Below, one piece after another: positions 27,059 to 33,238 of a DNA stretch of 64,000 nt; position 1 is the stretch's first letter; each line of letters begins with the position of its first letter. The DNA lies in assembly GCF_000970045.1 (NCBI RefSeq), contig NZ_CP009505.1, forward strand, positions 992,001 through 1,056,000, read 5' to 3'. A program made the position numbers and the translations under genes. Under the pieces are notes generated by a model that saw nothing but the letters and a program-made list of their open reading frames with translations, made no database searches and was not told the origin of the DNA. Origin of the DNA: Methanosarcina sp. MTP4. Lineage in GTDB: Archaea; Halobacteriota; Methanosarcinia; Methanosarcinales; Methanosarcinaceae.

Positions 27059-27091
27059 ACTTTCCAGGATTTCCCACTGCCCGAAGAGATG
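27059..27091 (-). pseudogene. Remnant of a duplicated DUF4139 gene 3' end
   Basis: These 33 bp are identical to 27266-27298 inside the neighbouring DUF4139 gene. On the minus strand they encode the same HLFGQWEILES stretch, and the offset is 207 bp, so the copy is in the same frame as the parent. Just before it on the minus strand, CTGGAACATCTC also parallels the parent. The rest is unrecognisable. It is best explained as the decayed end of a tandem partial duplication. A stem at 27123-27148 (GTCCGTTT/AAGCGGAC) lies between the two copies. Confidence 0.65.
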
Positions 27092-27160
27092 TTCCAGCAG
27101 AGTTGCGGCTCTGCAGTGCGCGGTCCGTTTCGCTTCGCTCAAGCGGACTATGTTGCTTAA

Positions 27161-28702
27161 TCAAAACCGCCTTTCCACCCTGTAGGAAACTGTCTTTGTG
27201 CCCTTTGCCGGAACCGTTACCCTGAATTCAACTGTGAAGGCATCGGTTTTGTCATATTCGTCGGAACTTTCCAGGATTTCCCACTGCCCGAAGAGATGCT
27301 CCACAACCGTTACTGCTTGGGCTTCGGATTTGCTGTTTGCAAGTTCGATCTCGTAACTGACTCTTTCCACATTGTCGCTGACACGTTCATAATCAGTTTC
27401 TGTCCTGGCAGCCGTGACATCAAAGGAAGTCCCGACAGCTGCCCTGATTTCTCCTTCCTAGGGGGTGTGCTCGATCCGGTCTTCTCCGAGGAACTGCAGG
27501 TCTCCTGCAGAATCGGTTTTGTATGTCCTGAATACACCTGCCGGAAGAGGCATTCCAAGCCCGTTTTCTTTGGAATTGTCCAGAGTCAGGAAAACCCGGA
27601 CCCTGTCTCCGGAAAAGCTGTCATAAATTAGTTCTTTTTTTATGGGTACGGAATCCGCAGTGAAAAGGGAGATCTGCTTTTCCTGGTTGTTTTTAAGGGT
27701 CGCCGTTTTTTCAAGGGTGTACAGGTGGTACTCAAAGAAACCCTCTTCAGTGAAGGGGCTTCCCACCAGGGCTTCTTCAGCCACTGCTTCGTCCTCAACG
27801 GCTTCATATACCGGCTGTGGGGTGGAAACCCGGTTGATTTCCCCGGAAACCAGTTTCAGGCCAGCGTCCTCAAAGTCAATCCCTGCCCGGTTGTCAATGC
27901 TTACCCAGCCCCGGATGTCGGCCCTGGTATCGTCCGCATTGCTAATCAGGGCATAATCCGCGTTCCAGCTTATGCCCCCGGTTAGGTAGGAGGTCAAAAG
28001 TTCCCTCTTCCCGGAAACAGGAGAGTAGAGCTGCCAGACGAGAGTTGGCTTTGTCGAAAGCCCTGAAGCGTCCGGAACTTCTACCTTCAGGACCTCCTGC
28101 AGCATCAGGACGTTTCCGTCTTTCCCCTCAAGGATAACGCCGTTTCCTTCATAGTTAAGCAGCTTTCCGCTGTAGCTCTCCCCGTCCCCGGCAGTAACGG
28201 TGATTTCCTTTTCCAGGTATTTCTCAAGTAATGAAAAACTGCTCACAAGGTCATACTCATAATTTTGTTCGATAACAGCGGTGTCCCTGTTTTCCGGGTC
28301 CTCAACCATAACCGAGGCAGGATCTATCATGGCTGCAACATTGCCGTACTCCACAAGGTTGACTCCGCTCTCGAGCTCGAATTCCCGCCGCTCTTTTACG
28401 AGAGCAAAGTCCTGCTCGTAAATAGTAATCTCAAGAGCTCCGGCTGCTCCTCCTGTCCCTCCTGTTCCTCCTGTTCCTGAGCTCAAAAACCCGATAGGGT
28501 CCGCAGGCTGAACTTTTGCATCAATGTAAGCCCCGGGTTCAACCCTCTCCCCGTCAACTGCAGATTCGATTTCATCCCCGTTAACTGCAGGATCATATGC
28601 CCGGGCCATGTTTCCGAATTCCTGGGGGAAACAGGCTGAAAAAACGAACATAACCCCGAAAAATGCCACCATAATCCATAATAAGCGCTTTTTCACTCCC
28701 AT
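27161..28702 (-). CDS. DUF4139 lipoprotein-like protein with one in-frame UAG (possible pyrrolysine)
   Basis: Reads from 28702 down to 27161 as 514 codons with a single internal TAG (plus-strand CTA at 27458-27460). Upstream of TAG are 414 residues ending FLGEDRIEHTP; downstream the same frame continues EGEIRAAVGTSFDVT and ends TVSYRVERRF at a TGA. The paralogue at 31739-33238 aligns across the site without gaps, with Lys where TAG stands (HTPKDEE). The N-terminus has a signal sequence ending in a lipobox-like FSAC, so the protein is probably exported and membrane-tethered. DUF4139 has no established role in archaea. Three readings are possible: pyrrolysine insertion or read-through, a truncated but functional 414-residue form, or a recent nonsense mutation (AAG to TAG is one change). 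The clean downstream frame favours read-through or a very recent event. Confidence 0.75.
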
Positions 28703-29003
28703 GTAATATAATGTGGTTTATATTTATTTATATATGACTTTGCTGCAGATTTAAGCTGGCTTGTGCCCGAAAAAAACCTTGTTTTTCAAAAAAAGTCTTT
28801 AAAATCAGATCTCATCCCGGTAAGTAAATACATTTATCCGAAATCACTGTCCTTACAAATGATGGGGAAGAACGTTTATATAAAATAAGTATATGTGAAA
28901 ATCCTGCCACATTGCTTTAAAAGGCCCCGGGTTTTGTGATAAGATTTAATCCTGACTCTAATTCCGGGTATTTCCTTTTTCGTATCGATACCAGGGGCCC
29001 TCA

Positions 29004-29022
29004 CCGCTTGCGAAGCAAGCGG
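29004..29022. other. Perfect palindromic hairpin in the 557-bp gap 28703-29259
   Basis: CCGCTTGCGAAGCAAGCGG forms an 8-bp perfect stem with a GAA loop. A hairpin with the same CGCTTGCGA core lies at 35205-35222. The rest of the gap between the upstream end of the first DUF4139 gene and the unknown minus-strand gene holds AT-rich DNA, including the probable DUF4139 promoter near 28720-28735 (TATTTATTTATATATG on the plus strand), and no gene that I can support. Confidence 0.6.
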
Positions 29023-29259
29023 CCCTTCCCGAAATTAATGAAAAAGAGCGATTGCAAAATAAACTGCAACTATTGGCTTTTATTTTGATTCGATTCACTT
29101 AACGTCAATATTCTGCCTTTACATCTAATTTTCGACATTACATCTTATTGTGTTTCTAACTTGTATTGATTGAGGAATAAGAGCTTCAATAAATCCTAAA
29201 TAACTTACATTGATTGATGATTCCAAATGCAGATCATAATTTTGCGAAATTAGAAAATC

Positions 29260-29931
29260 TCACTTGATTTTCTTTTTGGTATTCATATTCCTTAGGTAAT
29301 ATTTTTGAAATAATACTACTAGTTCTCCTAAAAATTCCTTGTCGCTTATAATTTCCTTGATTTCATAATTGTTAAATTTCTTGATCCATTCTATTTCACT
29401 AGCTTGAGCCGAAAATGAAATTGCTTCTGTTTTTTGATTCAATTCTTCAATAAAACTGGTATCAAAATCTTTCCCAAAGAAGTTATCAACCAAGCTTTTT
29501 TTATTCCCCAAATAAAGAAAATCAATATTTTTTTCATCATCCACACTGTTCACAAGATCTTCAAATTGTATTTGTAGTTCAGGGTCTGATTCATATAAAA
29601 GTTTGAATTGATCTTTATGAATTCTCATTGTTTTGGTAACTTGCAATAAATGAGCTTCTAAATTAGAATAAGAACTATTTATGCGATCTATTATTTCATC
29701 AGATGCACAGGCAGGATTCATTGGATTCAGTTTTAAACCCAGAATGTATGCCCCCATTAAAGTGTATACATTCAGTAGCAACTCATCATATGCCTTTGAA
29801 AGATTCTGAACTTCAGGTTCAAAATCTATAAATAGAGCTTCTCGAAGTTTATTTTTATATGAAGAATTTTTTTGTTTTTGAATAATAAATTCAATAAAAT
29901 TTATAATTGATAAACCTATACCAATGTCCAT
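29260..29931 (-). CDS. Unknown protein next to a nucleoside-deoxyribosyltransferase-like gene
   Basis: A 223-residue protein that I do not recognise. The ATG at 29931 is chosen over an in-frame TTG at 29949 because GGAGG (complement of 29938-29942) lies six bases upstream. The first 15 residues (MDIGIGLSIINFIEF) are hydrophobic and could be a short membrane anchor. The remainder is acidic and helical with no cysteine motif or nucleotide-binding loop. It is AT-rich compared with the flanking DUF4139 genes and is transcribed divergently from the broken gene at 30163. The pair sits between two DUF4139 paralogues as if inserted. A defence or toxin-antitoxin-like role is conceivable from context only. 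Confidence 0.6.
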   Translation of the reverse strand: MDIGIGLSIINFIEFIIQKQKNSSYKNKLREALFIDFEPEVQNLSKAYDELLLNVYTLMGAYILGLKLNPMNPACASDEIIDRINSSYSNLEAHLLQVTKTMRIHKDQFKLLYESDPELQIQFEDLVNSVDDEKNIDFLYLGNKKSLVDNFFGKDFDTSFIEELNQKTEAISFSAQASEIEWIKKFNNYEIKEIISDKEFLGELVVLFQKYYLRNMNTKKKIK

Positions 29932-30162
29932 TAGTTCCCTCCTTTCCAAACTCTATATTATTCAAACATCTATGTCAAATCAAAGATAATTTCGTATAGC
30001 ATTGTTTTTTATAGCATCATTTAAATATTTTAGTAGAATTTCCTTTTGTTATTTTTAGAAGCCAGAATAACAAGGTATTTTTACCAACTTATTGAAATAC
30101 TCATTGTCCGAATAGTCCAGAAAAAATACAAAAATGTTATATTTCTATTATACATTGCTAAT

Positions 30163-31571
30163 ATGATTGTAATGAATGATGAAAGATTTTCTACTGTCCC
30201 AAAGCCATTTGTTTTTGTCCTCATGCCTTTCGACGAGGATTTTGACGATATCTACAAATATGGGATTAAGGAAACTGCAAAAGAAATAGGTGCGTATGCT
30301 GAAAGAGTAGATGAGCAAAATTACAAAGAAGGAATGCTTGAAAGAATATTTAATCAAATAAATAAAGCAGATGTAATAGTCGCGGATATGACTGGTCGAA
30401 ATCCAAATGTATTCTATGAAGTAGGTTATGCACCCTGGATTCCCGGTGGATCATAACGAGCCCAGCAATATTTGATTGTATAGTCCCTGAAATTTGAAAA
30501 GATTATCACATACAAGCGTATTGATTATATAAATATTAAAAATGTAATTATTTATCGGAATGTTAATATCTTCATCGTTAGGTGGTGTATTACACATGAC
30601 GATGAAGGAACTTGCGTGGCGACAAACTCGATGTCATTGAATGCTTCGAACAGCCAGGAAAATCGCTTTGAGTAGGCGAGATGCTGAAAAAACAAAAACA
30701 TCTGTATGCCATGATCTGGAGGTGAACTCGCCTACCTCGTTACGAATGGGCGGGAATCCAGGATGCACATTCCTTAGGAAAAATAGTATTGTTATTAACT
30801 CAAAAGGTTGAAGATATTCCATTTGATCTAAAGCATAGGCAACATATTGTTTACGGCAATGATGGTAACAAAATTCAGAGTTTATGTAATCAATTGATCC
30901 CAAAGTTAACTTGGGCAATTAATGAATCAAAAAAAGGAAAAGAGAATACAAAAAACATTTTAATTTCGATATCTGATTGTTTAAGTTCAATGTCTTTGGT
31001 AAACAAATATGGCATAATTCATGATGAATATGATATTAGCATAAGTTTTAATAAAAATGAAAATTTTACTGAGATTCCAGAGGATTGCCTTTCAAAGTCT
31101 ATTCCAATCGTAAACATTTATAATTTTGAACCTTTTCCTTTAAGCTGTACTGATCATATCATCAGTGTCGATGAAAAAGGACAGCTTTGCAACTATGAAG
31201 AAAAAAGACATGTTTATGCTCTCAAGTTCCAAATCCATAACAATTCTTCACAGGCACTCCCAATTATCACGCACATTTATTTGTTTACCGATAACCTTAA
31301 ACTTCTATGTTTCTCAAGATATTGTGATATTGAATTGGTTTACAGTCCTGAAATAGATGATGAATTTCCAAATAAATATCGTTTAAAAACAACTGTTCCA
31401 TCTATACCTGCTGGTGCCGTTGAAGCATTTAGGCTCGTTTTGGTCACGGAAGATGAAGTATTTCAATATAACAACAAGCTCCGAATTCACATTTTAAATG
31501 ATTGTTATGAATTCCCATTCAGGCTCTGCAGGTCGGGCTCGACCCTACGCGACTCAGGAAAAGAAAACTGA
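30163..31571 (+). pseudogene. Nucleoside 2-deoxyribosyltransferase-like gene broken by an insertion
   Basis: The left part (30163-30433) encodes KPFVFVLMPFDEDFDDIYKY and MTGRNPNVFYEVGYA, motifs of the nucleoside 2-deoxyribosyltransferase/TIR-like nucleotide-binding fold. The right part (from 30765) continues AHSLGKIVLLTQKVEDIPFD and then about 230 residues of unrecognised domain. Removing the 329-bp element and one 6-bp duplicate restores one frame of about 357 codons across the join (GYAHSLGK). The original start is ATG 30163 or 30172; no ribosome site is seen, and a TATA-like TTCTATTATAC about 25 bp upstream would fit a leaderless mRNA. As it stands the gene stops at 30456 after 98 residues. 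Such N-glycosidase-like folds occur in several anti-phage effectors, but this assignment of role is inference. Its C-terminal half is unclassified. Confidence 0.8.
30434..30762. mobile_element. 329-bp MITE-like element with 12-bp terminal inverted repeats and 6-bp target duplication
   Basis: The ends CCTGGATTCCCG (30434-30445) and CGGGAATCCAGG (30751-30762) are perfect inverted repeats. ATGCAC flanks both sides (30428-30433 and 30763-30768) as a target duplication. Subterminal AACGAG/CTCGTT extends the symmetry to about 27 bp with mismatches, and a second inverted pair (TAGGCGAG near 30674 and CTCGCCTA near 30728) lies inside. No transposase frame is present, so it depends on a transposase elsewhere. 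Removing it with one duplicate restores the host gene frame exactly. Confidence 0.88.
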
Positions 31572-31649
31572 AAAATTCTTTCTGGATTTCGAAATTGACC
31601 AATCAATCACTCTATTTCAGAAAAAAGTATCAGAAGCCCATTTAAAAAG

Positions 31650-31670
31650 TAAGAGGGCAAAGCCCCCTTA
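31650..31670 (+). terminator. Hairpin downstream of the broken deoxyribosyltransferase-like gene
   Basis: TAAGAGGGC (31650-31658) pairs with GCCCCCTTA (31662-31670) around an AAA loop, with one mismatch. A T-rich run follows at about 31676-31697. It lies between the end of the broken gene and the convergent second DUF4139 gene and could terminate either transcript. Confidence 0.45.
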
Positions 31671-31738
31671 CAGGGTATTTTTCCAGATTTTTACCTTAAA
31701 CCGGCTTCCGGGAATTTTTCAGACTCTAGTCTGGGAAC

Positions 31739-33238
31739 TCAGAACCTGCGTTCCACGGTATAGGAAACGGTCTTTTCCCCATCTGCAGGCACGCTTATTT
31801 TCCATTCTGCGGTGAAAGCATCCGTCTTCTCATACTCATCGGAACTGCTGGTAATTTCCCAGTCCCCGTAGAAGTGCTCAACAACCGTGACGTCCTGGGC
31901 TGCGGACTTGTGGTTCTTGATCTGGATCTCGTAGCTTTCCCGCCAGACATCGTCACTGACTCTCTTATAGTTGGTCTGGGTCCTCGTACCGGTTACATCG
32001 AAGGCGTTTCCTACCGTAACCTCGACTTCTTCGTCCTTTGGGGTATGGTCGATGCTGTCTTCTCCAAGGAACTGGAGTTGGCCTTCGGAGTCTGCTTTAT
32101 ACACCCTGACAACGCCTGCGGGGAGGGGCATTCCCAGGCCTTTATCCTTTGAGTTTTCTAGGTTAAGGACTACCCGGACCTTGTCGCTCCTCGCCCCGTC
32201 AAAGATGAGTTCCTTTTCAACGGGCACAGAGTCCGCGGAGAGGAGGGAGAGCTGTTTGACCTGATTGTTCTTCAGGGTAGCCGGTCTTTCCAGGGTGTAG
32301 AGGTGGTACTCGAAGAGGGACTCTTCGGCAAAGGCTTCCTTTGTTGACCCTCCGTACGCTGCTTCTTCCTCGACCATATCATAAGCGACCCTCTGCTGGG
32401 GCACGAAGACCTGGTGGACTTCCCCTGCGACCAGCTTCAGTTTTGCGTCTTCGAAAGTGGTTCCGGCATTGTTATCAACACTGACCCAGCCCTGGATGTC
32501 AGCCTTCGTATCATCGGCATTGGCTTTCACTATATAGTCCGCCCTCCAGCTCATGCCTTCGGTCAGGTAGGAGGTCAGGACGTCCCGTGTGCCTCCCACA
32601 GGAGAGTAGACCTGCCAGACCAGGGTCGGCTTCGTGAGGAGCCCTGCAGAGTCCGGGAATTCCACTTTTGAAACCTCGGAGAGGGTCACGACTTTTCCGT
32701 CTTCGAGTTTGAGCACCACTCCGCCGTCATGGCTGAGAAGAATGCCGGTGTAGCTTTTTCCTTCCTCATCGGTAACCGTGATTTCCCTGTCAAGGAATTT
32801 GTCCAGAAGTTTGTAACTGCTTACAAGGTCGTACTCATAGTTCTGTTCCAGTACCACGGTATCTTTGCTCTTCGTATCCTCGAACATGACCGACGTCGGG
32901 TCTATGAGAGCGGCTACGTCCGTATACTCAACCTGGTTGACCCCGGCTTTTAGTTCAAGTTTCCGCTGTTCTTTCACAAGGGCAAGGTTCTGGTTATAGA
33001 CCGTAACTTCAGTCCCCGAATCCGTCCCTGCGGCTCCTGCGGAGATGAACCCCAGCGGGTCTGCAGGTTCTACTTTCGTCACCACAGCTTCATGGGACTC
33101 GATCCCGTTTGCAGCAAGTTCGATCTCATCTGCCGGAGTGAGTTCCCCGGTGGAAGTCGGACAGAAGAAAGCTGCAGCCACAGCTGCAACTCCAAGAAAT
33201 GCCAGCATAAAACAGACATAACTTCTTTTCATTCTCAT
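31739..33238 (-). CDS. DUF4139 lipoprotein-like protein, intact paralogue
   Basis: A 499-residue exported protein of the DUF4139 family. The N-terminus MRMKRSYVCFMLAFLGVAA is a signal sequence followed by FFC, a possible lipid-attachment cysteine near residue 26. The body contains TEVTVYNQNLALVKEQRKLEL, and KPTLVWQVYSPVGGTRDVLTS before the DUF4139 core (LTEGMSWRADYIVKAN). The end is KTVSYTVERRF. It is paralogous over its whole length to the gene at 27161-28702 but has no internal stop and carries Lys at the position of the UAG there. Probably a surface-associated beta-rich protein; the reaction or partner is unknown. It is transcribed divergently from the PKD-domain surface protein gene. Confidence 0.85.
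   Translation of the reverse strand: MRMKRSYVCFMLAFLGVAAVAAAFFCPTSTGELTPADEIELAANGIESHEAVVTKVEPADPLGFISAGAAGTDSGTEVTVYNQNLALVKEQRKLELKAGVNQVEYTDVAALIDPTSVMFEDTKSKDTVVLEQNYEYDLVSSYKLLDKFLDREITVTDEEGKSYTGILLSHDGGVVLKLEDGKVVTLSEVSKVEFPDSAGLLTKPTLVWQVYSPVGGTRDVLTSYLTEGMSWRADYIVKANADDTKADIQGWVSVDNNAGTTFEDAKLKLVAGEVHQVFVPQQRVAYDMVEEEAAYGGSTKEAFAEESLFEYHLYTLERPATLKNNQVKQLSLLSADSVPVEKELIFDGARSDKVRVVLNLENSKDKGLGMPLPAGVVRVYKADSEGQLQFLGEDSIDHTPKDEEVEVTVGNAFDVTGTRTQTNYKRVSDDVWRESYEIQIKNHKSAAQDVTVVEHFYGDWEITSSSDEYEKTDAFTAEWKISVPADGEKTVSYTVERRF

Follow-up and report, generated by a model that had tools for sequence, protein, structure and literature searches.

The DUF4139 gene and its surroundings

The 64,000-nt stretch of the Methanosarcina sp. 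MTP4 genome analysed here (the window) carries, on the minus strand, a DUF4140/DUF4139 gene interrupted by an amber codon. Its open reading frame (28702-27458, amber codon included) encodes a membrane-anchored protein with an N-terminal hydrophobic helix at residues 3-24 and runs for 414 codons to a TAG at 27460-27458, which is codon 415. The same frame remains open for a further 98 codons up to a TGA (27457-27161, minus strand), and the C-terminal end reads VERRF. We found no second lesion in the part before the TAG (the head) or in the part after it (the tail). These boundaries agree with an earlier sequence-only reading of the locus, which described a single in-frame TAG with 414 codons before it, 98 after it and no shift of frame.

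The read-through protein aligns with the Pfam family DUF4139 (PF13598) over residues 237-509, a match that spans the TAG and scores 31.1 bits against a curated cut-off of 31.8, and the 414-residue truncated product gave no DUF4139 match in Pfam. An intact paralogue lies at 31739-33238 on the same strand. It scores 37.4 bits against PF13598, aligns with the read-through protein along its length (∼60% identity) as far as the shared VERRF end and, as the sequence-only reading had stated, has a Lys at the TAG site, encoded by AAG. In the predicted structure, codon 415 falls into a loop between two strands within a well-modelled region (pLDDT around 90). The 98 residues past the TAG form seven predicted strands, so that truncation would remove a whole C-terminal beta domain. 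A fold search of the PDB returned chains of the yeast oligosaccharyltransferase as best hits for the DUF4139 protein, with TM-scores near 0.12; these weak matches were not used.

The DNA upstream of the gene is conserved in congeners over 118 bp (28703-28820, genome G001) or 161 bp (G002) and contains an apparently TATA-like stretch near 28735-28722, which suggests that the gene keeps its own promoter. Farther upstream, the two paralogues are separated by ∼2.9 kb (28821-31742), where a congener has ∼0.4 kb instead. This insert contains short ORFs without a clear Pfam family, and its segment 28899-29115 is 75-80% identical to other places in the genome, as a dispersed repeat would be. We considered the insertion as a cause of silencing and rejected it: it sits past the conserved upstream DNA, and nothing indicates that it disrupts the promoter. 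On the other side of the gene, 27059-27109 (minus strand) is a vestige of another copy of its 3' end, of which G001 retains a 58-residue copy (L044, 6665-6879). Another congener, G003, has a third DUF4139 copy (C85:3631-4278) with a TAA three codons past the position of the MTP4 TAG.

Origin of the codon and selection on the tail

A genome search identified an intact orthologue in each of the three congeneric species, with 90, 90 and 84% identity, and all three have a Glu codon at position 415 (GAG, GAG and GAA). Hence, the sequences indicate that the TAG arose by one G>T change from GAG on the branch to this species, and that Lys at this site belongs to the paralogue only. This replaces the AAG-to-TAG route, proposed earlier because the TAG had been aligned with Lys; the recent mutation that had been offered as the simpler rival to pyrrolysine keeps its recent origin but not its source codon. 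Orthologues with Lys throughout had been named as evidence against pyrrolysine; the residue is Glu instead, and no orthologue has the TAG. Homologues elsewhere in the family have GAA, CAG or CTG at this position (Glu, Gln or Leu). Of the full-length homologues matched in 101 family genomes, none but this one contains a TAG, and the few further TAGs are confined to short decayed fragments. The TAG of the DUF4139 gene was thus not found in related species.

On the branch to this species, the tail shows no sign of the relaxed selection that would point to an inactive gene. Among the changes unique to this species, 13 are synonymous and 3 non-synonymous in the tail, compared with 21 and 8 in the head. 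The corresponding omega values on this branch are ∼0.07 for the tail and 0.12 for the head, the tail being no looser than the head, and neutrality of the tail is rejected (p = 1.8e-6). Because of this constraint, had the tail turned neutral when the TAG appeared, the neutral period could account for no more than ∼4-12% of the branch. Continued constraint on the tail is favoured by a likelihood ratio of 13-22 when the age of the TAG is given a uniform prior, and of 1.2-5 under a prior weighted towards recent events. The age of the TAG within the branch is undated, and the constraint may predate it.

Pyrrolysine machinery and other in-frame TAG codons

The host is a member of the Methanosarcinaceae with a 4.2 Mb genome, assembled as one finished contig and 99.9% complete. 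A search for the pyl genes and an amber-suppressor tRNA, which had been suggested from the window, found pylT, pylS, pylB, pylC and pylD complete and in this order in one cluster (C1 about 4,048,145-4,053,264). The tRNA-Pyl encoded by pylT has a CUA anticodon (CTA in the DNA), and PylS scores 415 bits, above its curated cut-off. The genome also contains the TAG-containing methylamine methyltransferase genes mtmB, mtbB (two copies) and mttB. TAG is a rare stop codon in this genome. The intact genes called in the window end with TGA (16) or TAA (12), as observed before, and the DUF4139 gene has the sole TAG. This count carries little weight by itself because TAG ends only ∼1.8% of the called ORFs anyway (2.46 Mb of this genome). 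We do not claim a stronger depletion of TAG here, since the same method applied to 400 kb of a 5.75 Mb genome of another family member gave 2 TAG stops among 225, which is no different (Fisher p = 0.41). Some ORFs do end with UAG, such as a SerB-like one at C1:275670, for which we saw no need of an extension.

We scanned 2.48 Mb (∼58% of the genome) for stop codons with coding-like sequence on both sides. The clear cases outside the methyltransferases include genes for a Cation_efflux/ZT_dimer transporter (C1:312386), for a PAS sensor kinase (C1:3384944) and for a PspC protein (C1:364171). In each of the four species of the genus, with 84-94% protein identity, these genes hold one TAG apiece, past which the homologous sequence continues in full. 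Outside the genus, the closest homologues of the three proteins lack a TAG. Pattern searches placed the TAG at the same codon in 4/4 species for the transporter and the PAS kinase, and the Pfam matches to Cation_efflux and PAS_3 span the TAG codon in the respective gene. In the transporter, the TAG codon stands directly before the metal-ligand Asp of an ADAxxSxxD-like motif. The frame of the PAS kinase stays open for 755 codons past the TAG in this genome and is 977-987 codons long in all four species; such a frame, conserved past a TAG midway through a PAS fold, would be difficult to account for unless UAG is translated. In the PspC gene, the TAG is immediately followed by a start codon, so translation might restart there.

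Since these three genes keep an in-frame TAG in every species, the genus evidently uses UAG as a sense codon outside the methylamine methyltransferase genes too, and they provide stronger evidence for this than the DUF4139 codon does. The broader part of the sequence-only reading, that UAG encodes pyrrolysine outside the methylamine methyltransferases, is supported by the pyl cassette and the three genus-wide genes.

In-frame stops of other kinds were also seen. An HTH-type gene (C1:557129), which served as a negative control, is interrupted by one TAA in this species, its counterparts in the three congeners being intact; as TAA is not readable by tRNA-Pyl, nonsense changes limited to this species do occur without suppression. 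An endonuclease-like gene with a TAG is probably broken, its homology stopping 27 residues past the codon. In two DUF1699 paralogues, the 15 codons past a TAG are still similar; other paralogues end there with TGA or lack the extension, and an ordinary stop is as likely. A large TPR-repeat gene (C1:1647924-1649030 onwards) has a TAG inside a repeat, and no orthologue of it was found in the congeners.

How codon 415 may be read

The full pyl machinery, together with the retention of UAG inside unrelated genes across the genus, leads us to favour, with moderate confidence, the reading of codon 415 as pyrrolysine. In the proposed course of events, the GAG codon for a Glu in a loop of the DUF4139 protein became TAG through one G>T substitution. 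At this UAG, tRNA-Pyl would compete with the release factor without needing a special signal, and ribosomes would insert pyrrolysine part of the time, yielding full-length protein and some truncated product. The exchange of Glu for pyrrolysine would be neutral or nearly so, and tolerated because suppression is context-free. The pyrrolysine probably has no catalytic role in the DUF4139 protein, because the residue at this site varies, being Glu, Gln or Leu among homologues and Lys in the paralogue. In Methanosarcina acetivorans, an amber codon introduced into uidA was read through at 20-30% (PMC2933860). According to the same source, UAG translation does not require a PYLIS stem-loop. By analogy, some full-length product would be expected by default if the DUF4139 gene is transcribed. 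We tested the sequence 3' of its UAG for a PYLIS-type stem-loop and obtained no clear signal (fold z-score -1.36; 18/200 shuffles equally stable).

The most serious alternative is a recent nonsense mutation, with UAG acting as a stop, the gene inactivated or shortened by its C-terminal beta domain, and a tail too young to have decayed. The restriction of the TAG to one species, its undated origin, the comparable TAA singleton and the probably broken endonuclease-like gene all fit this explanation, as does the fact that UAG closes the SerB-like ORF; moreover, because the paralogue nearby is intact, loss of the TAG gene could be tolerated. The mutation would, however, have to fall within the short neutral period left by the tail, neither head nor tail has acquired a further lesion, and the genus retains UAG inside other genes. 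We regard this alternative as unlikely, though well short of negligible. Far less probable is a regulatory gene with two products, in which the pyrrolysine supply during growth on methylamines would set a useful ratio of the 414-residue to the full-length protein. In one pyrrolysine-using bacterium, UAG suppression depends on the growth substrate (PMC8211752), and truncation would occur just ahead of a complete beta domain, but no relative conserves the TAG and the site is variable. An error in the deposited genome is equally improbable: TAG is one base apart from the ancestral GAG, but the assembly is finished, finished genomes seldom contain base-substitution errors, and nearby codons also differ by ordinary substitutions.

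Read as pyrrolysine, codon 415 differs from the UAG codons of MtmB, MtbB and MttB. All of them are in-frame, occur in this genome and depend on the same decoding cassette, but in the methyltransferases pyrrolysine is catalytic and conserved across genera, whereas the DUF4139 site is variable and its TAG confined to one species. The case instead appears to follow the pattern of Thg1, the tRNA-His guanylyltransferase of M. acetivorans, for which a neutral evolutionary gain of pyrrolysine is described (Heinemann et al. 2009, as cited in PMC2933860). According to that account, Thg1 likewise has a single in-frame UAG in one species, with sense codons in the orthologues and a residue that is not needed for activity. 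The difference is that pyrrolysine was physically observed in Thg1, and the evidence for the membrane-anchored DUF4139 protein comes from its sequence.

For the genus as a whole, we tentatively raise the possibility, which we consider somewhat less probable than not, that UAG has come to serve chiefly as a pyrrolysine codon. In that case, the transporter, the PAS kinase and the PspC protein would need it in every species, new UAGs such as that of the DUF4139 gene would be absorbed as ordinary substitutions, and growth would depend on the pyl cassette even without methylamines. Archaea that use all their TAG codons as pyrrolysine were reportedly described in 2025. The locus offers a case with known ancestral codon, in which a new UAG has entered a coding gene in the presence of an amber-suppressing tRNA and beside older, genus-wide UAGs, and the new and old codons together make it possible to test directly whether UAG has a dual meaning or has been reassigned in this genus. 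The DUF4139 case alone would leave the picture drawn from Thg1 and 'Candidatus Methanomethylophilus alvus' unchanged. The latter resembles the present genome in its share of TAG stops (1.6%, compared with 1.8% of called ORFs here) and in having TAG within genes that have no link to methylamines (Borrel et al. 2014, PMC4153887). It belongs to a different order of methanogens, and 16 genes for putative pyrrolysine proteins are listed for it, compared with at least three genus-conserved ones in ∼58% of the genome here.
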